DNA of 41,161 nt from Gammaproteobacteria bacterium (GTDB taxonomy: Bacteria; Pseudomonadota; Gammaproteobacteria; Xanthomonadales; Xanthomonadaceae): NCBI GenBank assembly GCA_025356635.1, contig JANXRY010000027.1:1-41161 (forward strand), written 5' to 3'. Position 1 is the first letter of the stretch. The number at the start of each line of letters is the position of its first letter. The notes under the pieces are model-generated. The model worked only from the letters and a program-made list of their open reading frames with translations, searched no databases and had not been told where the DNA came from. This document shows positions 17,542-41,161 of the stretch, piece after piece. The position numbers and the translations under genes were made by a program.

Positions 17542-19368
17542 TCACGCCGCCCCTTCCTTGTAAAGCCACTCGCGCGCCCAGTTTTCCAGCACGAACAGCA
17601 CCCAGAGCTTGAACTCGGGTTCCACTTTGGCCATGAACGCGTGCACGCCGGCCGGGTTCAACAGACCGCGCCGCACCAGCTCGCCATCGAGCACCGTTGA
17701 TCGCATCGTTTCCGTGGCGACGATGCGGTCGAGCGGAAACGAGAATCCCTGTTTGGGCTTGCGCTGGAGTTTCGGCGGCAGGTATTTCGCTGAAACTCGC
17801 CGAAGCACGCCCTTGCCGCCGCTTTCGCTGGCGTCCAATTCCGGGGGCAGCGACAAGGCCAACTCTGCCAGACGATGGTCCAGCAGAGGTACCCGAACTT
17901 CGAGCCCATGCGCCATGGATGCGCGGTCCACGCGCGCCAGGTTGCAATCCACCAGGAACGATTGGACGTCGAGGTACTGCCATTGCCGGGCTATGTCGCC
18001 CTTGGCTTCGGCTACCGGATCGATGCGTATGCCCGCCTGCAACTGCGCAATTTGCTCGCACCATTGCGGAAACAGCAACTGCAACTCACCCTTGGTGAAC
18101 GACGGGAAATGCAGCAGGTGGTAGTACTCGCCCTGGTTGGCGCAGCCCTCCGGCCATTCGCGCCCGAATCCGAACCGCCGGCGAACACGTTCGACGAACC
18201 AGGCCAGGCGCCGCCTCGGCGTTGCTTTCACCTGTCGGTACCAGGAATAGCCTCCGAACAACTCGTCACCACCATCGCCGGACAAGGCGACCGTGACCCG
18301 CTCGCGAACGACCCGCGCGAGATGCCAAGTCGGCAGGATCGAAATGTCGGCCATCGGCTCGTCGAAGGCATGGAAGAATTCGCGGGCATGCTGCGGATCG
18401 TTCAAGGTGAAACTGGCCGCATCGATATCGCTGGTGTGGTGGTGACTGCCGACATGCGCGGCGGCGGCGGTGGCATCCTCGCGCTCGGAGCCCTTCCAGC
18501 CGGGGAAGTCGACGAAGAAACTCTCGACCCCGGGGCGAGCCTGTGCCGCAACCGCCGCAATCAGCGACGAATCGATGCCTCCGCTGAGGAACACGCCGAT
18601 CGGGACGTCGCTGACCAGTTCCTCCCTGACCGACGCCGTCAACAGGTCGCTGGTCGCAGCGATGGCGTCCTCGTCCGACATCGCCCGCGTCGCTTCCGGC
18701 AGCGTCCAGTAACGATGCATGGCAACCGTGCCCTGCTCGGCGTCGAAGCCGAGGGTGGTGGCGGGCGGCAGGCGGAATACGCCGTCCCAGATCGACTGGC
18801 TGCCCTGGACATAACCGACGCGAAGGAAACTGAGCAGCGCGGCGACGTTGGGGCTGTTCGGGCTTGCCATCAGTGGCAACAACGCCCTCGACTCCGAGGC
18901 GAACGCGAACTCGCCGCCGAGCACAGAATAGTAAACGGGCTTCACGCCGAGACGATCCCGCGCCAGCAACAATCGCTTCCTGGCCTGGTCCCACAGGCCG
19001 AACGCGAATATCCCGCGCAACCGGGAGACGATGCCATCGCCCCACTGCTCGTAACCATGGATGATGACTTCCGAGTCGGACCGGGACCGGAACTCGTGTC
19101 CGGCGGCGATCAATTCGGCGCGCAACTCGAGATAGTTGTAGATCTCGCCGTTGAACGTCATCTGGATCGAGCCGTCCTCGTTCGCCATCGGCTGGCGCGC
19201 AGCGTCGCTTAGGTCGATGATAGCGAGGCGGTTGTGGGCAAGGTAGGCGATCCGATCGTCCGAGGCCCATTCGCCGAAACCATCCGGACCGCGGTGGCGC
19301 AAACTCAGCGCCGCCTCGCGCAATCCGGCATGGTCGCGCCGTCCGATCATTCCGAAGATTCCGCACAT
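17542..19368 (-). CDS. asnB: Asparagine synthase (glutamine-hydrolysing), putative sugar amidotransferase
   Basis: 608 residues. The N-terminal 'MCGIFGMIG' keeps the catalytic Cys2, and 'RLAIIDLSD' and 'NGEIYNYLELR' (73-83) complete an intact glutaminase. The synthetase domain has SGGIDSS (262-268) and 'SGDGGDELFGGY'. It can release ammonia from glutamine and transfer it to an adenylated carboxylate. Within glycan loci, AsnB homologues such as WbpS are thought to amidate hexuronic acids, and that is the likely role here rather than asparagine supply. The ATG at 19368 is fixed by the required Cys2 and by TGATG overlap with the upstream gene. Contrast the Cys2-to-Ser homologue at 35700-37565. 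Confidence 0.9.
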   Translation of the reverse strand: MCGIFGMIGRRDHAGLREAALSLRHRGPDGFGEWASDDRIAYLAHNRLAIIDLSDAARQPMANEDGSIQMTFNGEIYNYLELRAELIAAGHEFRSRSDSEVIIHGYEQWGDGIVSRLRGIFAFGLWDQARKRLLLARDRLGVKPVYYSVLGGEFAFASESRALLPLMASPNSPNVAALLSFLRVGYVQGSQSIWDGVFRLPPATTLGFDAEQGTVAMHRYWTLPEATRAMSDEDAIAATSDLLTASVREELVSDVPIGVFLSGGIDSSLIAAVAAQARPGVESFFVDFPGWKGSEREDATAAAAHVGSHHHTSDIDAASFTLNDPQHAREFFHAFDEPMADISILPTWHLARVVRERVTVALSGDGGDELFGGYSWYRQVKATPRRRLAWFVERVRRRFGFGREWPEGCANQGEYYHLLHFPSFTKGELQLLFPQWCEQIAQLQAGIRIDPVAEAKGDIARQWQYLDVQSFLVDCNLARVDRASMAHGLEVRVPLLDHRLAELALSLPPELDASESGGKGVLRRVSAKYLPPKLQRKPKQGFSFPLDRIVATETMRSTVLDGELVRRGLLNPAGVHAFMAKVEPEFKLWVLFVLENWAREWLYKEGAA

Positions 19369-20282
19369 CAGCGCAACCCCACTTGGTGCGCCCAACTCGA
19401 AACCACCGCTCGCAATTTCGGTCCGCCCGGAATGAAATCGCGCAGCGGGTATCGGCTGAAAATCGGCGAGTAGGCAATCGCCGCCCGCCAAAGTCGACCG
19501 GCACGGACCAACTCGCCGGGCTTCTTGCCGTACCGATTCGCCATCAGGAGTTTCCCGGCCCGCGCTGCGCCCCTGACTTGCGCCGATGCCGATTCAAGGC
19601 CGGGCAAAGTATCGATGGCCAGGCCGTAGTCGCGCACGATGCGCGCACCCTGGCCGTCCCGTTGCCCTTCGTGCATCGAGCGTTGCGCCATCAATCGCGG
19701 GATCTTGGTCGCGGGCGCCTGCATTGCCATCCGGAACCACAGGTCGGTATCGGCGGCATACGGTACGCTGCTGCGCCAACCGCCCAAGGATTTCGCCATC
19801 GCCATGCGGAAGAAAGTCGACGGCTGCGGGATCCATGTTTCCAGGCTGAGCACGCCTTCCAGCGAGTACCCAGGCAACTCGGTGCGCGACAGCTCGTGAC
19901 CGTCGGCATCGACCTTGGTGATGTCTCCGAACGCGAATGCCAGTTGCGGGTCCGCAGACAGCGCGGCGACACCGGCGGAGATCGCGCCCGGCAAGTAGAA
20001 ATCGTCCGAACTCTGGATCGCGCCAATCTCGCCGCGCGCCTTGGCGAAACCCTTGTTCACCGCCTCGACAACGCCGCTGTCCTTCTCCGACACCCAGTTC
20101 AATTCCGGGGCAGAACCGAATTCTTTCAGGATCGCCACCGTCTCGTCGGTGGATGCGCCGTCGATGACGATGATCTCGATCGGGCGATAGTCCTGGGACA
20201 GGATTGACTCCAGCGTGCGCCGGATGAAGCGCCCCTGGTTGTAACTTGGGACGATAATCGAAACCAGCGGACGCCCGTTCAT
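19368..20282 (-). CDS. Glycosyltransferase family 2
   Basis: 304 residues. 'VSIIVPSYNQGRFIRRTLES', '[10 protein letters not shown]' and 'EIGAIQSSDDFYLP' show a GT-A domain; the DxD position reads SSDD, a variant common in this subgroup (the same DGASTD type as the gene at 949-1719). I chose the ATG at 20282 because it overlaps the STELLO-like stop as ATGA; an upstream in-frame start at 20309 lacks support. The stop shares one base with the AsnB start (TGATG). It is a cytosolic enzyme of glycan assembly with unknown donor. Confidence 0.87.
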   Translation of the reverse strand: MNGRPLVSIIVPSYNQGRFIRRTLESILSQDYRPIEIIVIDGASTDETVAILKEFGSAPELNWVSEKDSGVVEAVNKGFAKARGEIGAIQSSDDFYLPGAISAGVAALSADPQLAFAFGDITKVDADGHELSRTELPGYSLEGVLSLETWIPQPSTFFRMAMAKSLGGWRSSVPYAADTDLWFRMAMQAPATKIPRLMAQRSMHEGQRDGQGARIVRDYGLAIDTLPGLESASAQVRGAARAGKLLMANRYGKKPGELVRAGRLWRAAIAYSPIFSRYPLRDFIPGGPKLRAVVSSWAHQVGLR

Positions 20283-32095: not shown

Positions 32096-33289
32096 TCAAT
32101 TCCTGCGAAATGACGCCGACGCATACTTCCATGCAAGGCGGGCCCACCGCAGCGGCAAATAGAGGGCACTCAATGGGCCCGGCAGTGACCAGCCGGTCCA
32201 CTCTACCAAGCCAGGCATAAGCACCACATCAGTCGCGTGGATCAGTCGTTGCCGCCCTGTTTCGTATAACGCGAAGTTCAGCTTCATCCGCTTGAAGGCT
32301 CCTGGCATCGGCGTGTCTGGATCGAGTAGGCCGGGAATGCTGGCCAATGCGATCCGTTTCGCCTCGATCTGGGTCGCCAACCAAGACCGGACCACGTCCG
32401 GCAGTTCGACTCGCAGCAAGACTTCCATCAGATGCAGCCCGTATGCCAGCCGTCGCCCTGCGTTCTGGCTTTCGGCCCGGGCGATGATCCAGGCCCAATC
32501 CAGCGTGGGCTGTTGCCGGATCAATTCGGCGACATCCACCAACCAGCCCAGGCTTGCCCAGAAATGCTTGCTGCCATGCAGGCAAAGCACAAGTAACAGT
32601 TCACTTGGCGAAAACGCCTTCACATCCTGGCCTTCGAACCGGGCGGTTGGCAGGTTCGACCACCAGCAAGTGTCCGACGACTCGACCGGAAACTCGGCGT
32701 CCGTCTTCCAATGCAGTTCGACCAGAATGGCCGGTTGATCCCGCTTGAGCGCCAAGTGGTAATGCATTCGCGAATTTGCGAGACCTGCTTCGACAGCAGG
32801 TGCCATCGGATAATGTGGTTGATAGCCCCTCGTCTCGAGCAAGGCCTTTGCCTGAAGAATATCCCCAGGTCGCAGCAGCAGGTCGAGGTCCCCGTAAACA
32901 CGCAACGCAAGATCGCCGTAGACCCTCGCTGCTAGTACCGGCCCCTTGTAAGGGATTGCAGGAATATCGTGTTCATCGAGAAACTGGAGAATTGCGATCA
33001 ACTCCGCGGCCATTATCTTGTTCCGCCGACGCAGGAGTTGCTGTTGACTCCACAGCTCGGCATAGATCAACTTGGGTAGCCGCTCTCCGAGGTGCAGGAA
33101 AACCAGCGGGCGCAACCCATGCACTGCGGCCAACTCCAGCAGCGAGATCCAGTCAAGGTCGCGCGCGAGCAACTGCGCGATCCGATCACGCTGATCGGCT
33201 GTCGGCTGCAGGCAGGCGCAGCACAGCAGTAGCTCCGCTTCCAGCGATAACGCCGGGTACTCGGCCAACGATGTCTTGCGCGCCGCCAT
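32096..33289 (-). CDS. Nucleotidyltransferase family protein (NTP_transf_5 type)
   Basis: 397 residues. The N-terminal half holds YKGP (114-117) and 'LRVYGDLDLLL' (129-139), whose two spaced Asp residues (134, 136) form the metal site of the uncharacterised nucleotidyltransferase family PF14907. These proteins recur in lasso clusters beside HPr-kinase-like genes; in the pseudomycoidin system such a protein was reported to act on the phosphorylated peptide, adding hexose. They also recur in EPS loci. Here it follows the methyltransferase by 3 nt and closes the RiPP-like block. Substrate is unknown; modification of a phosphorylated C-terminal Thr is a testable guess. Confidence 0.75.
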   Translation of the reverse strand: MAARKTSLAEYPALSLEAELLLCCACLQPTADQRDRIAQLLARDLDWISLLELAAVHGLRPLVFLHLGERLPKLIYAELWSQQQLLRRRNKIMAAELIAILQFLDEHDIPAIPYKGPVLAARVYGDLALRVYGDLDLLLRPGDILQAKALLETRGYQPHYPMAPAVEAGLANSRMHYHLALKRDQPAILVELHWKTDAEFPVESSDTCWWSNLPTARFEGQDVKAFSPSELLLVLCLHGSKHFWASLGWLVDVAELIRQQPTLDWAWIIARAESQNAGRRLAYGLHLMEVLLRVELPDVVRSWLATQIEAKRIALASIPGLLDPDTPMPGAFKRMKLNFALYETGRQRLIHATDVVLMPGLVEWTGWSLPGPLSALYLPLRWARLAWKYASASFRRN

Positions 33290-33292
33290 GAA

Positions 33293-34450
33293 CTAACGAC
33301 TGTAGCGCAGCGAAAGCTCGCCGACGCGCGCCAGCGCCCGCCGCCAGTCGTTGAATCGGCTCGGGTAGCCCATCGCAATACGGCGACTAATCTCCGCCAA
33401 AGACTGCCCATCACGCATCAGTTGCAGGATCGTCAGGTCGATGTCGCCGTCCTCGCCAATCTGCGGCACGTAGTCGGCGGCGCGTTTGCGAAATGACGCC
33501 AACGACAACGACTCACCGGCAAGGTCGGACTGGCGGAAACTGGCCTTGATTACGGCGGAATCGCCTTGCCCAAGTACCGTGGTTTCCCATCGCCATACGT
33601 ATTCTTCGCCGACGAGATCGGCCGTCAGCCGTATATCAAGAACATCCCCGGCCTGCAATGCCACCGGCTCCGGAAATGGCATGAACAAGTTCCGATAGAT
33701 TGCGCGCGGCGCCTCGGGAAGTCCCGGCGCATTGGCGAATCCTATGCCTTCGGAAAGTGTGGCGTCGAACCACGCGCAAAGCCCATGGGCCACGCCGTTT
33801 CGCGTCGCCTCCAAGCGGGCCGCACCAGCAAAGTCCGGGCTTTCGATCAAGCGATAGTCCAGCGTGCCAAGGTGCATCGGCTCCGACAGCAGCTGCGAAG
33901 CGTTAGCGGCAACGCGCCGATAACGGTTCACCATCCGCTTGCGCGCAGGCTCCATCGCAATTCCGTAGGGGCCGTCGCTCCAAGGCGAAATGATCGTCTT
34001 GTAGGTCTCGGGGTCTTCCAGCACCGATATCCAGAGATCGTCGCGCTCGGGGATCTGCACCCCACCCGGCTTCAACAGGCGCTGGCGTGCATCAACGATT
34101 GAGGGAATGTGCTGGCCGAAGAGCGGCAACACGCCACGGAGATCGGAGATCACCACATCGGCCTGCTCGTTCAATTCCAGTTCTGTCGACAGGATCTGGT
34201 GGAATTCGATCGCGTCGGCGCAGCCATTGTCGGCAGCGATTTCCCGTGCGATCTGGATGGAATCATTGGGCTCCACAGCGATGACCCGGCGCGCACCGAA
34301 CTGGTGGGCAAGTACGGCGAAAATTCCGGTGCCGGTTCCAATATCGAGCACCACCGATCCTGGCCGGACGGCATTGCGCAGTGCACGCACGTAGGCTTCC
34401 ATGCGCACGCTGTCGAGGATCATGTCGCCGAAGCCACTGAGGCTATACAT
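33293..34450 (-). CDS. PRMT-fold SAM methyltransferase with PqqD-like C-terminal tail
   Basis: 385 residues. Motif I is VLDIGTGTG (34-42) with the acidic ribose-binding Glu60 in 'VIAVEP', and an N-terminal 'MYSLSGFGDMILDSVRMEAY' helix like the SAM-clamping helix of protein arginine methyltransferases. The diagnostic double-E loop is not kept: the 'SEWMG' position reads 'SDLRG' and the second Glu is missing, so arginine may not be the substrate. The core peptide has no Arg. The last 60 residues ('GDIDLTILQLMRDGQSLAEI') resemble the helical half of PqqD-like domains and might supply a recognition function the cluster otherwise lacks; this is weak inference. GGAG sits 5 nt before the ATG. The gene is only 3 nt from the nucleotidyltransferase. 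Confidence 0.7.
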   Translation of the reverse strand: MYSLSGFGDMILDSVRMEAYVRALRNAVRPGSVVLDIGTGTGIFAVLAHQFGARRVIAVEPNDSIQIAREIAADNGCADAIEFHQILSTELELNEQADVVISDLRGVLPLFGQHIPSIVDARQRLLKPGGVQIPERDDLWISVLEDPETYKTIISPWSDGPYGIAMEPARKRMVNRYRRVAANASQLLSEPMHLGTLDYRLIESPDFAGAARLEATRNGVAHGLCAWFDATLSEGIGFANAPGLPEAPRAIYRNLFMPFPEPVALQAGDVLDIRLTADLVGEEYVWRWETTVLGQGDSAVIKASFRQSDLAGESLSLASFRKRAADYVPQIGEDGDIDLTILQLMRDGQSLAEISRRIAMGYPSRFNDWRRALARVGELSLRYSR

Positions 34451-34467
34451 ACGGGCTCCGCTGGAGG

Positions 34468-35463
34468 TCAGGGTTCAATCGGCGCCAGCGCTAGTCGCTG
34501 GAAGTCGTCGGTGATTGTCTGGCAAAGCTCGAAGATCCGCGCCATGTCGTTGCCCGCCCATACCTTGCGCACGGGCACGTGTTTCACCACGCGCCCCAAG
34601 GCTTCGAACTCCCGGGCGCGATGCTCGGGGCTCACCAGGTTTTTGCCGTAGGTATCGGCGACCAAAGCCATCAGCGCAGCGCGAGGATCGATGGCCCCCA
34701 CGATCGGCAACGCCGACTCGTCGTAGCGGTCGCCGAGGAAATAGATGGCAGCGAGCGGCAATGGCTCGCTCTGGAATGAATAACCGTCGTCGCCGAGGTC
34801 AAGGAAGCGCTTGTCCCAAGTCGGGGTGATGCGCGGTAGCGAATCCTCGGAACCGAACAGCGCTTCGACCGATTCGGGCCAGAGGCGGATCCTGGGATAG
34901 GCCGGTTGCACGGAAAAAGAGCCGCCCTGCTCGGCAAGGGCGACGATATCGTCGCTCAACACCGGATAGCCGAGCCTGGCGAAGGCGGCTGCGGTGCTGG
35001 ATTTGCCGGCACCCGATGGCCCGACCAGAGCGATAGCCTGGCCATCGATCTCAATGGCGCTGGCGTGCAAACAGGTGACACCGCGCAAGCGAAGCAGGTA
35101 ACCGAGCCCCGGCCCCAGCAAATAGGTTGCCGTATCTTCCAGCGTTGCTGACTCCGGCCAGGTCGCCCAGAGCCGCGTGCCCTTCCCGTCCAGATAGAGA
35201 CGGGTGCCGTCGGCGTAAGAAATCCGGATGAATTCAAATCCGGCGACGGCAGCAGCCACCAGGATGGGCGACTCTTGCTCGTCCGTTTCATCGTGAACGA
35301 AGAACGGTTCCCAAACTTCTTCGGTCATCCCTGACAGCTCGGGAGGCTCCGAGCCCAGGGTCATTTCGACATCTATTCGTTCGATAGGCCGAAGACCAGA
35401 AAGCCCCGCGATCGCCTTGTCAAAGCGCAATCCCAGACCATAAACAGAGCAAGTAAACGACAT
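34468..35463 (-). CDS. HPr kinase-like protein (HprK-related), putative RiPP kinase
   Basis: 331 residues from the ATG at 35463. The C-terminal half carries a P-loop GPSGAGKSS (148-156), preceded by 'LHAS' and followed by an acidic pair in 'LSDDIVAL', the fold of HPr kinase/phosphorylase-related proteins. The N-terminal region has no clear known domain. HprK-like kinases in paeninodin-type lasso clusters phosphorylate the C-terminal residue of the peptide, and this precursor ends in Thr. Related HprK-type kinases also occur in EPS loci with PqqD-like proteins. An upstream in-frame GTG at 35493 would add ten residues; I prefer ATG because homologues of this kind begin near 'SFTCSVYGL'. It lies 17 nt before the methyltransferase. 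Confidence 0.75.
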   Translation of the reverse strand: MSFTCSVYGLGLRFDKAIAGLSGLRPIERIDVEMTLGSEPPELSGMTEEVWEPFFVHDETDEQESPILVAAAVAGFEFIRISYADGTRLYLDGKGTRLWATWPESATLEDTATYLLGPGLGYLLRLRGVTCLHASAIEIDGQAIALVGPSGAGKSSTAAAFARLGYPVLSDDIVALAEQGGSFSVQPAYPRIRLWPESVEALFGSEDSLPRITPTWDKRFLDLGDDGYSFQSEPLPLAAIYFLGDRYDESALPIVGAIDPRAALMALVADTYGKNLVSPEHRAREFEALGRVVKHVPVRKVWAGNDMARIFELCQTITDDFQRLALAPIEP

Positions 35464-35495
35464 GCGGGTGACTTCAATCGGAAGGTTGGTCACGC

Positions 35496-35549
35496 CCGCC
35501 AGGTACAGACTGCGATATCAAGAGCCCGCCATGGAAATTCGCCTGGCGG
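35496..35549 (-). promoter_or_regulatory. Alternative hairpins between precursor and kinase genes
   Basis: Just after the precursor stop the transcript carries CCGCCAGG (35549-35542). It can pair with TGGCGG (35531-35526; 6 bp, loop of 10 nt) or with CCTGGCGG (35503-35496; 8 bp, loop of 38 nt). The two pairings exclude each other. There is no U-run, so this is not a standard terminator. A hairpin after a RiPP precursor often raises precursor transcript over downstream genes; that role here is inference. Confidence 0.35.
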
Positions 35550-35563
35550 AACTCAAACACAAA

Positions 35564-35710
35564 TCAAGTTTTGGCATTACCTGCCATCGCGCCATCACCC
35601 ATCCCATTTAAAGGGTTTACGTTATTGGTAAGGGCGCGAAGATTGCCATAGGCCTGCAGCGACGGCGTGCTGTAGCCCTTCTTGGCAGGAAGTTTGCTGT
35701 CAGGTGTCAT
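35564..35710 (-). CDS. Lasso-type RiPP precursor peptide (48 aa)
   Basis: A 48-residue ORF. Residues 13-28 read YSTPSLQAYGNLRALT, matching the lasso leader consensus YxxPxLxxxGxxxxxT, with Tyr, Pro, Leu, Gly and Thr in register. This is the motif a RiPP recognition element binds, and the Thr is normally the penultimate leader residue. Cleavage after residue 29 would leave the 19-residue core NVNPLNGMGDGAMAGNAKT. The ATG at 35710 has GGAG (35721-35718) seven nt upstream and overlaps the cyclase stop by 11 nt. Oddities: the core does not start with Gly, its only acidic residue is Asp39 (core position 10, or 9 if cut one residue later), and it has NG and DG steps and a C-terminal Thr. An ordinary 7-9-residue ring is therefore not assured. 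Confidence 0.8.
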   Translation of the reverse strand: MTPDSKLPAKKGYSTPSLQAYGNLRALTNNVNPLNGMGDGAMAGNAKT

Positions 35711-37565
35711 GGGAGAGCTCCGAATTGATCGTTATCTTGGGGCGTCTGTTCCCCAACCAGATGTTCAGGCACAGGGGCCGTAAACCTATCCACGCCGCCT
35801 CTGGGTCTCTTAGCGTGGAAGGCCGGGGCATCCCGGCTGTCTTAACGTAGCGGTTTAGACCGTCGTTGGCAACAAAATCATCGAGCCAACGAGCGTCTGG
35901 CTGCGACAACAGTTCCAGATAGGGGTATCCCGCCAGCCCTGTCTTCGGCCGAATTCGAACCTTTTCGGGTAACTTTCCCCGCATAGCCTCCCGCAGGACG
36001 TGCTTGTGAATGCGCCACGGGTGCGGCGGCAGGCTCAGGCAATAGTCCAGCAGTCGTAGGTCCAGCAGTGGATGCCTGTACTCGACGGCGCAACCGGTCC
36101 GGCCCGGGTCGAAGTAATCGAAAAAAGGGGACGCTTCCGTCAAAGCCTCGGCGGTGCGCGCCGCATTCGCGGAGACAAGGCCACGACTGGAATACGGCTG
36201 CTGGTAACGATTCCACCTTGCCTTGAGATCGAAGCGTCGCTCCAGGTCAGGATCGATCCAGTCCGGGTAGGCCGGGCCTGGCGATTGCGGAATCGTCGTT
36301 CGCCCCGTCAACCATTGCCATTTCCCGCTCGGCACGAACTTGCGCTGGGTAATGGCATACCCGATAGCCTCGAACAAAAACCGGCCAACACGACCGTTTG
36401 CCAGCAACTGCCGGAAATACGGTTTTGGAGACTCGTTCAAGAACCCGTCGCCCTCCCATCCGGTAAGCATGACTCGTCCGGCTCGGGCGGCGCGTTGGTA
36501 GGTGTCCACCGAGCGTATGAGCACCGGGTCGGGGTCGGGTTCCGGCGTCCACATTTTGGGCTCGTCGGCATTTTCGAACAACTGATAGTCGTCCGCCGCG
36601 ATGATGTCCGCCGGGATTGCCAGCACCTCTGCCGCCATCGAAGCGAATTTCCGCTCGTCGTCGTGAAACAGACGATCGTAGACGATGGTCTGGATATGCA
36701 TCTTGAACGGCGTGCCCCGCCGGACCAGCAAGGACTTGGCAACGGCGGCCACCGACGTCGAATCAAGGCCACCACTCATCTCAATGCCAATGTGATCTCC
36801 GCGAAGACGGTCATTGACTGCTTGTTCGAGCAGTTCCATGAATCGTTTCGTGTAGTCGCCACCCTTCCGGTATTCGACGGGGCGATCGGTCGGGAACTGC
36901 CAGTACCTGCGAACCTTCAATCCCTGCTGCGTGAAGCTCAATGCATGCCCGGCCCGAAGTCGCTTGATATGCGCGAACGAGGTCGTCGCCGGGTCTTTGT
37001 TAGCTCCAAACAGGAGGAAATCTGCAATCGCCAGATCGTCGAGTTCGTCTGGGATCTCCGGATGCTGCCGCACACAGTTCAGAGTGTTGCTGAATACGAT
37101 TGATTGACCAAGTTGCGCATAGAAAAACGGTTTTACGCCAAAATGGTCACGCGCACAGAACAGCTTCTGTCTTGGTTCGTCCCAGATCGCGAAGGCAAAG
37201 TCGCCGATCAGATGCTCCACGCAAGACTCACCCCAGGCGTGATAGGCATGCAGTATCAACTCATGATCGAGCGCAGCCGCCAGGTTAGTCCGGCCCAAAG
37301 CGGATAGCTCCCTCTTGAGCTCCGCCTGACCATCAATGCGGGCATCGGCAGTAATCCACACCTGACCATCGAGGCTGCTAGGCTGATGTTCGCGTACGGA
37401 CTCGACCGTGGTGCGAAGCAAGGTATGGCCGAGGCCCGCCCTACCCTCGGCCCAGACCTCCTGCGCATCGGGCCCGCGAAAAGCCATGAACGATGTCATT
37501 TCCAGCAGCAACGACCGATCGACCGCCGCGCCATCCATGTGAACGATTCCGCAGATGCCACTCAC
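35700..37565 (-). CDS. Asparagine-synthetase homologue, lasso-peptide-cyclase-like (C protein)
   Basis: 621 residues with an N-terminal Ntn glutaminase-like domain (1-170) and an ATP-pyrophosphatase synthetase domain with the PPi loop SGGLDS at 264-269. The start is 'MSGICGIV': position 2, Cys in working glutamine amidotransferases, is Ser. The glutamine-binding 'NGE' motif is replaced by 'DAR' (74-76), a feature of lasso cyclases. So it should activate a carboxylate by adenylation without hydrolysing glutamine. This fits macrolactam formation in a RiPP, and the adjacent precursor has a lasso leader motif. It starts at a GTG at 37565, 45 nt after the flippase, and its last 11 nt overlap the precursor start. 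It differs clearly from the intact AsnB-type gene at 17542-19368. Cyclase function is inference; an amide-forming step on glycan is the alternative. Confidence 0.8.
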   Translation of the reverse strand: MSGICGIVHMDGAAVDRSLLLEMTSFMAFRGPDAQEVWAEGRAGLGHTLLRTTVESVREHQPSSLDGQVWITADARIDGQAELKRELSALGRTNLAAALDHELILHAYHAWGESCVEHLIGDFAFAIWDEPRQKLFCARDHFGVKPFFYAQLGQSIVFSNTLNCVRQHPEIPDELDDLAIADFLLFGANKDPATTSFAHIKRLRAGHALSFTQQGLKVRRYWQFPTDRPVEYRKGGDYTKRFMELLEQAVNDRLRGDHIGIEMSGGLDSTSVAAVAKSLLVRRGTPFKMHIQTIVYDRLFHDDERKFASMAAEVLAIPADIIAADDYQLFENADEPKMWTPEPDPDPVLIRSVDTYQRAARAGRVMLTGWEGDGFLNESPKPYFRQLLANGRVGRFLFEAIGYAITQRKFVPSGKWQWLTGRTTIPQSPGPAYPDWIDPDLERRFDLKARWNRYQQPYSSRGLVSANAARTAEALTEASPFFDYFDPGRTGCAVEYRHPLLDLRLLDYCLSLPPHPWRIHKHVLREAMRGKLPEKVRIRPKTGLAGYPYLELLSQPDARWLDDFVANDGLNRYVKTAGMPRPSTLRDPEAAWIGLRPLCLNIWLGNRRPKITINSELSHDT

Positions 37566-37610: not shown

Positions 37611-39227
37611 CTACTGGGCAACACGATTCCGCTCCGGGGGCGCCTTTGCAGCGCAGTAAGCGACAAACCACTTGAACCGGATCCATCTGGACAGAAAATC
37701 GTAGTGAATCCTCTCCAGTGCGCCACGATGGAACTGAACGAGCGCCATCGACGCCAGGCAGGCCGTGTAGGCTGCTCCAGTCAATAATGCGAGCGAAATT
37801 CGCGTCTTCCATGAGTAGCGGCTAACAACGTCGAGCGACGACAGCCAATGCTCAAATGGCAGGTACACGATCGCGGCAAATGCGAGGCATACGACCAGCA
37901 ACGGCCAGAAGCTCCAGAGGTCTTTCAATGTTCCGGATAGCGGTTGATCGTAGGCGCGGTGAACATGCACCAACAACAAGCCGGCGCCCCCCAGCATTGC
38001 GACCGCCGTACCGGCGGCCGCACCCGCCATACCCCATTCCATGACCAGCACGATGCTCAAGGGAATATTGATTAGAATCGCAGCGATCGCGGCGCGCGCC
38101 TGCAGGTCCGCGCGGCCGGCTGCCTGAGCCATCGCCGCCGCCGGCAGCGCTAGCACGTTTCCGGCGGTGCCTAGCAGCAAACCGAGGAAAACCCAGCGCG
38201 ACGTATAGCCCATTTCGCCGGTCCACGCATACAGGAAGATCGGCGCAATGGCCAAGGGTGCGATCATGAAGACGATAACGGCGATAGCGGCCAGGCGCGT
38301 CACCGTCTGGTAGCGTTGCCAGACGTCGGCGCCAGAAATGCGGCTGATCGCAGCAGTCGAAAGGAACGAATCCAGGCCGCTCGACGGAATGCTCCGTAAA
38401 GCCAGCACGCTTCGATTTGCCACCTCGTACGGCGCCACGGCAGCCAATCCTAGGAAACTGGCGATCAGGAACTTGTCGAACTGGAAATTGATGATCTGGG
38501 CCCAGTCGGCAACCTGGATCTTCAAGCCATGGCTGAGAAAGTCGCGAAGCTCCGTGAACTTCAATGTGACCGCGACAGACGTCCGAACATAGAACCTGCG
38601 CGCCACAATGAAGCTGATCGCCAATACGATGAATTGGCTCAGCCAATAGGCAAGCAGCACCATCTCAAGACGACGCGTCCAGACAGCCGCGATTGCCGCA
38701 GAAACGTTGGAAACGAATGACTGCAGGAATGACACGAAAGCCAACGCGCGAAAACGCCTCGCCGCATTGAAGGCATGCGCACCAAACTGAAGCACTGCTC
38801 GGCACGCCACCGCGACATAGACGAAAACGATCATTTCACTAGCCGACAGCGTTTCGCCGCCCGGCAAACGCAGCAGCTGTGCGACCGAACCCGAAAACCA
38901 CAGCACTACCGGGAATGCGACGGTAAACGCCACCAGCTGGATCGACATCGCGTTGTTGAACACGACGCCAACCTGCGCCCAGTTTCCCTCGCAGATCAGC
39001 GGCGCTGCGAATTTGACGAATGCCAGTGGCATTCCAATCTCCAACGCCGAGAATGCCGCACTGGCCGCAAGCAGCAGTGCCCATGCCGCAAAGCCGTCGC
39101 CGCCGAGGAAGTGGATGAGCAGCGGGATCATGCCCAGACCGACCGCCATATTCGCAACCCGGGCCGACACCAACAGCCCGGCCGGGACGAACGCGGTCTG
39201 CTGCTCGGTTAACAGCCCGGTCTTCAT
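37611..39227 (-). CDS. Wzx-like polysaccharide flippase
   Basis: A 538-residue integral membrane protein with about twelve to fourteen helices, fitting the polysaccharide transporter (PST/MATE-like) family that flips undecaprenyl-diphosphate-linked repeat units across the inner membrane. The N-terminal 'ARVANMAVGLGMIPLLIHFLGGDGFAAW' region is typical of the first helix pair, where a conserved Gly-rich turn precedes 'W.LL'. It starts at ATG 39227, overlapping the upstream polymerase stop as ATGA, which makes a wzy-wzx pair. A 45-nt gap separates its TAG stop from the asparagine-synthetase-like gene. Lipid-linked glycan flipping is inferred from family and neighbour; the substrate is unknown. 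Confidence 0.82.
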   Translation of the reverse strand: MKTGLLTEQQTAFVPAGLLVSARVANMAVGLGMIPLLIHFLGGDGFAAWALLLAASAAFSALEIGMPLAFVKFAAPLICEGNWAQVGVVFNNAMSIQLVAFTVAFPVVLWFSGSVAQLLRLPGGETLSASEMIVFVYVAVACRAVLQFGAHAFNAARRFRALAFVSFLQSFVSNVSAAIAAVWTRRLEMVLLAYWLSQFIVLAISFIVARRFYVRTSVAVTLKFTELRDFLSHGLKIQVADWAQIINFQFDKFLIASFLGLAAVAPYEVANRSVLALRSIPSSGLDSFLSTAAISRISGADVWQRYQTVTRLAAIAVIVFMIAPLAIAPIFLYAWTGEMGYTSRWVFLGLLLGTAGNVLALPAAAMAQAAGRADLQARAAIAAILINIPLSIVLVMEWGMAGAAAGTAVAMLGGAGLLLVHVHRAYDQPLSGTLKDLWSFWPLLVVCLAFAAIVYLPFEHWLSSLDVVSRYSWKTRISLALLTGAAYTACLASMALVQFHRGALERIHYDFLSRWIRFKWFVAYCAAKAPPERNRVAQ

Positions 39228-40606
39228 CGGGCGTGCTCCTGCATTCGGGACGCGCCAGACACCGAGATGCTATGCATCAGCATCAAGCCCAGCAGGAAAT
39301 TGACCGGGAAGACCTCGTTGATGTTGAGCGTCAGGCTGGCGAGTGCAATTACCAGATAGGCCGGACGCGCCACCCTGTCCACCAGGAATCCCCAGGCCAG
39401 CAGCCAGTAGAAGGCGACAATTCCGATGATTCCCAACTGAAGCAAGAGCACGGTCGGCATCGAATCAGAGTAGAAAAATCCCCACGCGCCTGGATCGATG
39501 TTTTCGGGAAGCAGAGCAGCAGGATCAGCCAGATGGTTGGCAGCCGCGTTGGTGCCCACTCCCAGGCCACGGCCGAAAATGATCTCCGGGATGGTCGACA
39601 CCTGAAGCACATCGTTGAACTTGCCCACACGCCCGCCCTTCGCGAACAAGGAGTCGTAGACATCCGGACGGTGCGTCAGCACTGGCAAACCCACGATGGC
39701 TCCCGCACAAATCGCCAACAGAACGGCACCTGCGACCAATCGCATTGAACGCGGCATCCGCCTCATAGCCAACATACTAATCAATGCGAGCAACGTGACA
39801 ACTCCGGTGCCGGAGCCACTCGCGACAACCAGGACTACCGTGGCGACCATCAGGACCGGTAGATAAGCCCTGGCGGACGAAAAGGAAGCGTAGAACGCCA
39901 AGGATGTTACTGCGATCGTCCCAAGAGCATTCGGCAGCACCATCGTACCCGCGGCACGAAACCAGTATGGGCATGCCCGCAGCGGCAGCCCTATTGCCAC
40001 CTCGACCAGCACAAGCATGGCTTCGATCAGCAACAACCATCCGACCGATTTCGCGAAAGAAGGCATCCCGCGTATCGCCCACGCGCCAAACAGTGCCAAG
40101 CCGAGGAACTCGAAGGTCCGCAGCCCGAGGAAAGCGACGATACCTCCCCACCTAGACGATGCAATTGCGAAGCCGGCCCCGACCAAACCGGCCAACAGCC
40201 ACGGTGGCCCGGAAACCGCAATTGCAGGCAAAGTCTCTCGCCTGGTCACGAGCAGGAACACGGCAAACAACACAAAACCGCCGAACAGCGCGTCCTTCCC
40301 GAACTTCAACCAACGCTCGTAGCCGGCGCTATGAAACAGGTAGTTCGGCGCCGGCAATTGTCTCTCGTCGACCGACAAGCCACCCGACTGGCGAGGAAAC
40401 TGCTCCGGTATGCATATGCACTGGCTGGCTGAATCGAGGCTCCTGCCGTTCGGCAATCCGCAGACGTCGGCAATGTAGGACATATAGGCCTGGCGTTCGA
40501 GCAAGCCAATGCGTTTGAGGTAGCTGACCGCGCCATTGCTTAGACTTGCAAGCAGTAACCCGATACTGAACAAAACGGTCAGCGACTTGTACTTCACGGT
40601 CGTCAT
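39224..40606 (-). CDS. O-antigen/EPS polymerase, Wzy/O-ligase-like membrane protein
   Basis: A 460-residue polytopic inner-membrane protein with about ten to twelve hydrophobic helices and a large hydrophilic loop in the C-terminal half ('IIFGRGLGVGTNAAANHL' region), the layout of the Wzy_C (O-antigen polymerase/ligase) superfamily. Such proteins join lipid-linked repeat units or transfer them to an acceptor at the periplasmic face. The frame is open further upstream to 40762, but I chose the ATG at 40606 because it overlaps the preceding stop as ATGA and leads straight into the first hydrophobic helix ('KSLTVLFSIGLLLASL'). The stop overlaps the flippase start as ATGA. Family sequence conservation is low, so polymerase versus ligase cannot be settled. 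Confidence 0.78.
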   Translation of the reverse strand: MTTVKYKSLTVLFSIGLLLASLSNGAVSYLKRIGLLERQAYMSYIADVCGLPNGRSLDSASQCICIPEQFPRQSGGLSVDERQLPAPNYLFHSAGYERWLKFGKDALFGGFVLFAVFLLVTRRETLPAIAVSGPPWLLAGLVGAGFAIASSRWGGIVAFLGLRTFEFLGLALFGAWAIRGMPSFAKSVGWLLLIEAMLVLVEVAIGLPLRACPYWFRAAGTMVLPNALGTIAVTSLAFYASFSSARAYLPVLMVATVVLVVASGSGTGVVTLLALISMLAMRRMPRSMRLVAGAVLLAICAGAIVGLPVLTHRPDVYDSLFAKGGRVGKFNDVLQVSTIPEIIFGRGLGVGTNAAANHLADPAALLPENIDPGAWGFFYSDSMPTVLLLQLGIIGIVAFYWLLAWGFLVDRVARPAYLVIALASLTLNINEVFPVNFLLGLMLMHSISVSGASRMQEHAR

Positions 40607-41161
40607 GCCTTGGCTGTCGCAAAGCTTACCCAACGTCCGCGTGAGGACATAATCACCGCCCGCTCTTCGTCGTGAAACGTATTGCTGCGCCACAAACAGG
40701 TCGCCAGGATCACTGTGCCAATCGCATAAAGCGCCGCCACAGCCGGGGCTATTAGCCAGCACGTGGAGATGACCAGTGGCTCTATCAAATGCGTCATGAG
40801 GACGATGAATACGGTAGTAAACACGATGGCGCGAAGGAAGGGGGCCAGTGCGACGGCTATCCGCGCCCAGGACAGCGCCAGTCCGGCGGCTTCGGTGAAC
40901 AAATCGGGGTGGTCGCGATGCACGTGCTGGGTTTCAGAACCCGGGTAGGCGCAGACCGCGCCGATGCTTTGCAAAACGCAGTCCTTGCCGAGCAATTCCT
41001 GGACGATCGGCAGAACGCGTCGGGCGGCATAAACCGCCGGATCCATGAAGGGTTGTTGCAAGCGGATGGTGAACATGTAGCGCTCAAGTCCGACCTTGAG
41101 GCAGGTTTTCTCGACCAACTCGCGATCCATGGCGGCGTAGTTGCGCATGAAGTCGTCTTGC
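40603..41161 (-). CDS. Partial PhyH-like N-terminal region followed by membrane segments (5' end outside window)
   Basis: The frame is open to the window edge, so the Met at 41148 may be internal. The first part resembles the phytanoyl-CoA dioxygenase (PhyH) family of Fe(II)/2-oxoglutarate enzymes, with a 'PGSETQHVHRDHPDLF' stretch that carries an HxD-type iron motif (HRD). After about 30 more residues the expected jelly-roll core is absent. Instead come three hydrophobic stretches, probable membrane helices, and a short basic tail ending 'SFATAKA'. The stop overlaps the next start as ATGA at 40603-40606, so the gene looks translationally coupled to the polymerase. It could be a true fusion, a deletion junction, or a frameshifted PhyH gene. 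I cannot name a function; the second iron-binding His of PhyH is not evident. Confidence 0.5.
   Translation of the reverse strand, partial: QDDFMRNYAAMDRELVEKTCLKVGLERYMFTIRLQQPFMDPAVYAARRVLPIVQELLGKDCVLQSIGAVCAYPGSETQHVHRDHPDLFTEAAGLALSWARIAVALAPFLRAIVFTTVFIVLMTHLIEPLVISTCWLIAPAVAALYAIGTVILATCLWRSNTFHDEERAVIMSSRGRWVSFATAKA

Follow-up and report, generated by a model that had tools for sequence, protein, structure and literature searches.

A kinase- and nucleotidyltransferase-associated lasso peptide cluster in a gammaproteobacterial polysaccharide locus, with its probable B1 and B2 genes beyond a contig edge

Can a lasso-type cluster for a ribosomally synthesized and post-translationally modified peptide (RiPP) lack both the RiPP recognition element (RRE) protein, B1, and the transglutaminase-like leader protease, B2? 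The question is raised by positions 1-41,161 of contig JANXRY010000027.1 (C77 in our numbering, ending at C77:41161) of assembly GCA_025356635.1, from Gammaproteobacteria bacterium (Xanthomonadales; Xanthomonadaceae), a 2.5-Mb genome in 126 contigs that is 97.44% complete and 2.65% contaminated. This whole stretch of 41,161 nt is here called the window. On its minus strand follow, in order, a flippase, a macrolactam cyclase (C), a precursor peptide (A), a kinase (K), a methyltransferase with the fold of protein arginine methyltransferases (PRMTs), here called MT, an NTP_transf_5 protein, and a sugar epimerase. A sequence-only reading of the window had described a lasso-like cluster from which B1 and B2 were missing, and had suggested that these act in trans, that the tail of MT replaces the RRE, or that the product is a different macrocycle or a peptide-glycan conjugate.

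Both genes are in the same genome. A profile search of that genome with PF13471 and PF05402, as the same reading had proposed, returned one match each (E 2.2e-19 and E 4.7e-16, respectively), side by side on another contig, C47 (locus label L003). B2, a transglutaminase-like cysteine protease (C47:1738-2187, minus strand), scores 70.3 bits against the lasso_biosyn_B2 model NF033537 (cut-off 33), and its Cys85 and His119 are kept in 46 of 46 aligned rows. B1, of the RRE/PqqD family (C47:2189-2476, minus strand), scores 60.4 bits against PF05402 (cut-off 23.4) and 53.9 bits against NF033536 (cut-off 80). An MsbA-like ABC transporter, D, is divergent from this pair and ends at C47:4124 on the plus strand. 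The end of the window (41126-41161) and the start of C47 (C47:1-36) share 36 nt with one mismatch, a sequence found at these two places only in the whole genome, even allowing three mismatches, and a single open frame on the minus strand reads across the overlap. Because C47 joins the window end by this overlap, B1 and B2 would lie in cis with C, the end of B2 being ~5.3 kb upstream of the start of C on the same strand. As judged from the overlap, the apparent cluster without B1 and B2 is a contig-edge effect and no true absence; action in trans is superseded by the cis-adjacent placement, and the alternatives that rested on the absence of B1 and B2 are no longer needed, since both would be in cis. 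This removes a false exception, lasso cyclization without RRE and protease, of a kind that contig edges can create.

The locus is therefore very probably a lasso cluster tailored by a kinase and a nucleotidyltransferase, its core genes all in cis and interrupted by polysaccharide genes and a contig break. In this outline the earlier proposal of a lasso-type RiPP cluster with such tailoring inside a polysaccharide locus holds, A, B1, B2, C, K, and the NTP_transf_5 protein all having been identified. C (35700-37565, minus strand), an asparagine-synthetase-family macrolactam cyclase, has, as had been noted before, Ser2 in place of the glutaminase cysteine; the start reads GTG-Ser-Gly-Ile-Cys. Its best lasso-specific match is NF033535 (374.6 bits, cut-off 525); Ser occupies position 2 in 70 of the 83 aligned rows, and the SGGxDS motif is nearly invariant. 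The polysaccharide locus contains a further asparagine-synthetase homologue (17542-19464), which was considered as a second lasso cyclase and rejected: it scores 457.8 bits against TIGR01536 (cut-off 267.1) and only 225.4 against the lasso cyclase model (cut-off 525), and is read as an ordinary amidotransferase.

The 48-aa precursor (35564-35710, minus strand; YSTPSLQAYGNLRALT) shares 11 nt with the end of C, and its leader has the YxxPxL...G...T motif, as previously described. The leader ends ...YSTPSLQAYGNLRALTN, and the predicted core is NVNPLNGMGDGAMAGNAKT. Against the NCBIfam leader models the peptide stays below cut-off (NF033528, 20.7 bits, cut-off 33; NF033521, 16.7 bits, cut-off 19). 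The closest cyclase match among 60 related genomes is only 34-39% identical, and no close relative was found there. Conservation was examined in the best 80 of 572 confirmed cyclase relatives, from named genomes. The census required the strict leader motif and a short tail, matches with tails longer than 75 aa being excluded. Near the cyclase ends of these 80 loci, in 81,369 nt, the strict motif has 74 matches, versus 15 in the other 2,648,623 nt of strand, and several of the 15 distant ones resemble further precursors elsewhere in the loci. The sequence-only reading had staked its case on relatives keeping precursor and cyclase together; a motif-bearing precursor lies beside C in 67 of the 80, which leaves that case unrefuted. 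At least two lasso-type precursors occur in each of L043, L061, L046, L079, L090, L096, and L097, in L043 and L097 some kilobases from C.

Core positions were counted on the assumption that the leader is cut two residues past its Thr (T-x rule), and under this rule the sole acidic residue of the window core is D10. Of 24 precursors from loci with MT (the window and 23 from 22 loci), 18 have Asp or Glu at core 9 and 6 have it at core 10 (the window, L026, L027, L036, L038, and L041). In 2,000 shuffles, at most 10 of 24 had an acidic residue at either place, versus 24/24 observed. MT is distant or weak in some of the loci so classed (L047, L063, L064, L065, and L067), and two of these, L063 and L065, have no strict-motif precursor beside C and are outside the 24. 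Published lasso rings have 7 to 9 residues, according to the parts of PMC8498205 available, so D10 would mean for the window that the cut is shifted or that the ring is larger. An unthreaded or ten-residue-ring macrolactam in place of a classical lasso is a possibility to which we give appreciable weight, while thinking it the less probable outcome: six precursors have their only acidic residue at core 10, and other lasso enzymes have been used to produce a ten-residue-ring analogue in vitro (PMC8498205, same parts), whereas a cleavage shift of one residue would restore a nine-residue ring, and threading is not readable from sequence.

At the other end of the core, [KR][TS] lies within six residues of the C terminus in 22 of the 24 precursors (at most 8/24 in shuffles), and the window core itself ends in Lys-Thr. 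For comparison, 16 precursors of loci without MT were hand-picked for short cores from 51 near-C matches (L033, cut short, is among those left out); 12 have an acidic residue at core 9, none at core 10, and 13 have the [KR][TS] end. Non-MT precursors also carry [KR]T; therefore, this end appears independent of MT and fits the kinase better. In genome G008, a precursor near L138:1019 has the C terminus MATALMRFI and so lacks [KR]T there.

The kinase (34468-35463, minus strand) had been called HprK-like; its frame is confirmed, and the profile matches are weak and below cut-off (PF07475, 25 bits, cut-off 33.3; TIGR04352, 35.8 bits, cut-off 200). The PDB yielded weak P-loop matches and nothing closer, one of them HPr kinase (E 0.0036). 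H133, K154, D171, and D172 are kept in 67, 67, 62, and 66 of 67 aligned rows, and a His-Lys-Asp-Asp motif is reported for lasso kinases in the available text of PMC9266682. The NTP_transf_5 protein (32096-33289, minus strand), putatively for phospho-glycosyl or nucleotidyl transfer, is confirmed by PF14907 at 191.4 bits. Judging from these families, the proposed order begins with B1, which would bind the YxxPxL leader; K would then phosphorylate the C-terminal Thr in the conserved [KR]T, and MT would methylate precursor or product. B2 would next cleave two residues past the leader Thr, and C would activate the core Asp and close the macrolactam onto the N terminus; finally the NTP_transf_5 protein would decorate the phosphate with a sugar or nucleotide, and the divergent transporter D would export the product.

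Could the same enzymes make no lasso at all? A linear polyphosphorylated peptide (LPP) or a peptide-glycan conjugate on the exopolysaccharide, modified by the kinase and the nucleoside triphosphate (NTP) transferase, would be in keeping with the combination of RRE, HprK-like kinase, NTP transferase, and MsbA-like exporter that LPP clusters in capsule loci have in common (excerpts of PMC13381572), D being MsbA-like here too. However, C and B2 are both present, all 24 MT-locus precursors have the acidic residue at core 9 or 10, and the LPP leader motif given in those excerpts, YxxPxVLxHQxIxFETxxS, differs from that of the window. We regard this alternative as very unlikely.

The methyltransferase (33293-34450, minus strand) was assigned from sequence and predicted fold. 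As had been proposed, it is PRMT-like: its best PDB match has E 7.7e-23, and the AlphaFold model (predicted local distance difference test 86.6, predicted template modelling [TM] score 0.74, from 18 sequences) finds PRMT2 as its best Foldseek match (E 3.1e-26), with TM scores of 0.70-0.73 to PRMT2/HMT1. Protein arginine methyltransferases have two catalytic glutamates in a double-E loop; the residues of MT aligned to them are Asp103 (in 20 of 25 rows) and Gly112, so arginine N-methylation is doubtful. The C-terminal tail, annotated as three-helix, has predicted helices at 317-326, 333-346, 351-361, and 369-384 and no strand. That it serves as the RRE and makes B1 dispensable would suit a helical end that is conserved in the consensus. 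Yet the hhalign comparison with B1 gave a probability of 10.4 over 26 columns, a helix pair (2.9 for the whole of MT), the strands that the PqqD fold contains are missing, and a separate B1 accompanies 15 of the 17 C-K-MT loci, the contigs of the other two starting inside C. We rejected this candidate as hardly credible. MT accompanies kinase-tailored lasso clusters in cyanobacteria, acidobacteria, Rokubacteria, Chloroflexi, Myxococcota, and gammaproteobacteria, an association of some interest; we did not find a PRMT-fold methyltransferase with lasso genes described in the open-licence papers searched, one of which carries both terms, subscription papers lying outside that search.

Gene content of the 80 best loci, called by tblastn with the window proteins, agrees with a complete cluster: B1 is found in 67, B2 in 58, both in 53, and the kinase in 76, and of the 8 with neither B1 nor B2 several are on short or cut contigs. 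C, K, and MT are collinear on one strand in 17 of the 80, and B1-B2-C-K-MT in 12. Lasso clusters also occur in four genomes of the same genus or family as the host (G008, G019, G028, and G031), where D is transcribed divergently from B1-B2 and C is close by. In G008, of the same genus, the cluster is compact and split over two contigs (L108 and L138), the contig ends having part of C in common; this cluster also includes A, K, and an MT with 39% identity to that of the window.

The two halves of the cluster nevertheless appear to differ in descent. For D, B1, and B2, the best matches of the host are these four family genomes (B1, 65-49% identical; D, 63-52%, versus 47% to L073), whereas for C, K, and the NTP_transf_5 protein, the family genomes rank last or near last in identity. 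Trees were built after removal of rows with <60% query coverage and restoration by hand of the family rows of C, those of C and K being quick ones. In the B1+B2 tree the window groups with L106, L108, L109, and L110 (support 98/96); approximately unbiased (AU) tests reject its placement with L024+L073 (p 1.3e-4) and with the MT-type core (p 4.5e-5). In the C tree it groups with L024+L073 in a cross-phylum clade (Shimodaira-Hasegawa-like approximate likelihood ratio test [SH-aLRT] 92), and AU tests reject placing C with the four rows from the family (p 1.05e-5) and K with L109, L110, and L138 (p 0.0036), although all these p-values are somewhat optimistic because the groups were defined after the identities were seen. 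The locus looks like a mosaic of D-B1-B2 from the lasso cluster of the host family and C-A-K-MT-NTP5 from a multi-phylum clade. The simplest account would be that the foreign block arrived beside the D-B1-B2 of the host family, with polysaccharide genes between and a broken-looking open reading frame (ORF) near the junction. Leader processing and ring closing of different ancestry would offer a natural test of module exchange between B1/B2 and C.

B2 and C are parted by a 515-aa ORF, by one ORF that is weakly PhyH-like and another that is ligase-like, and by a flippase. The flippase (PF01943), confirmed as adjoining the cluster, and the weakly O-antigen-ligase-like ORF (PF04932, 19.3 bits, cut-off 31.7) occupy 37611-40605 on the minus strand. 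The junction ORF, also on the minus strand, spans the join (window 40603-41161 plus C47:1-185), with its start on C47; its weakly PhyH-like front (PF05721, 12.3 bits, cut-off 22, E 0.21) passes in frame into a membrane-like tail. Recombination, a deletion, or an assembly fault may have given rise to it. The 515-aa ORF adjoining B2 (C47:187-1734) belongs to no Pfam or NCBIfam family, and the 60 related genomes contain no match to it. Polysaccharide genes continue along C47 (Wza/Wzc-like by reading), and on the side opposite the flippase the cluster is bordered by the sugar epimerase ORF, labelled UDP-xylose synthase by reading alone.

Such a layout could also reflect decay, in which D-B1-B2 would be what is left of a family-type cluster after replacement or loss of its own C-A-K, and would not serve the acquired C-A-K-MT-NTP5. 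The mosaic ancestry, the possibly truncated or fused junction ORF, and the polysaccharide genes that split B2 from C (in 35 of the 80 best loci, B1-B2 adjoins C on its upstream side) are in line with this. On the other hand, the core frames are all open with catalytic residues intact, and the window precursor retains the leader motif in exact spacing, the same motif being found in family-type precursors (L109, L110, and L138). We consider decay unlikely and retain the kinase- and nucleotidyltransferase-tailored lasso cluster as the favoured interpretation.

Several points weigh against that interpretation. The C47-C77 join, read from the sequence overlap, has one mismatch, in an assembly of 126 contigs with 2.65% contamination. 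Among the lasso-specific NCBIfam models only B2 exceeds a curated cut-off, C, A, and B1 being best matched by theirs and below them. The acidic residue at core 10 falls outside the published ring sizes (PMC8498205, in part), and the predicted phosphorylation site is Thr, whereas LppK, the HprK-like kinase of LPPs, left a Thr variant unphosphorylated in the available text of PMC13381572. The joining of C to L024/L073 has an SH-aLRT of only 92, and the MT tree gives no firm placement around the window. GC content, tried as a sign of transfer, is alike in both halves and fails to separate them. A more elaborate proposal, to which we assign a rather small likelihood, is a natural hybrid: D-B1-B2 of one lineage would serve the acquired C-A-K-MT-NTP5, and the product would be a ten-residue-ring lasso with a methyl group placed by the PRMT-fold enzyme elsewhere than on arginine and with a phosphate on Thr, through which it would be linked to the surface polysaccharide of the locus.

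Set beside known systems, which are compared here through partial texts of the papers cited, the core of the cluster is ordinary, and what is new, as known from genes alone, is the PRMT-fold methyltransferase, a possible ten-residue ring, and the apparent mosaic descent. With the paeninodin and pseudomycoidin lassos (PadeK, ThcoK, PsmK, and PsmN) it has in common A, split B1/B2, C, an HprK-like kinase with His-Lys-Asp-Asp, a nucleotidyltransferase, an ABC exporter, and the YxxPxL leader (PMC9266682, PMC8498205). It differs in having a C-terminal [KR]Thr where the known peptides have a terminal Ser, in the added MT, in the polysaccharide genes that part B1-B2 from C, and in the acidic residue at core 10. 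Methylated lassos (the C-terminal O-methyltransferase StspM and the PIMT-type aspartimide formers) likewise use S-adenosylmethionine-dependent methyltransferase tailoring (PMC9266682), whereas the MT of the window has a PRMT fold and aligns Asp103 and Gly112, not Glu, with the two PRMT glutamates. The polysaccharide setting is not new, because lasso clusters inside capsule loci, with kinase and NTP transferase as usual companions, are already in print for Bacilli (PMC13381572). These and the LPPs share with the present locus an RRE, a kinase, an NTP transferase, and an MsbA-like exporter within a polysaccharide locus; they come from other phyla, the present locus gives no sign of the archaeal-type signal peptidase, for which no search was made, the window has MT in addition, and the leader motif of the LPPs is a different one (PMC13381572).

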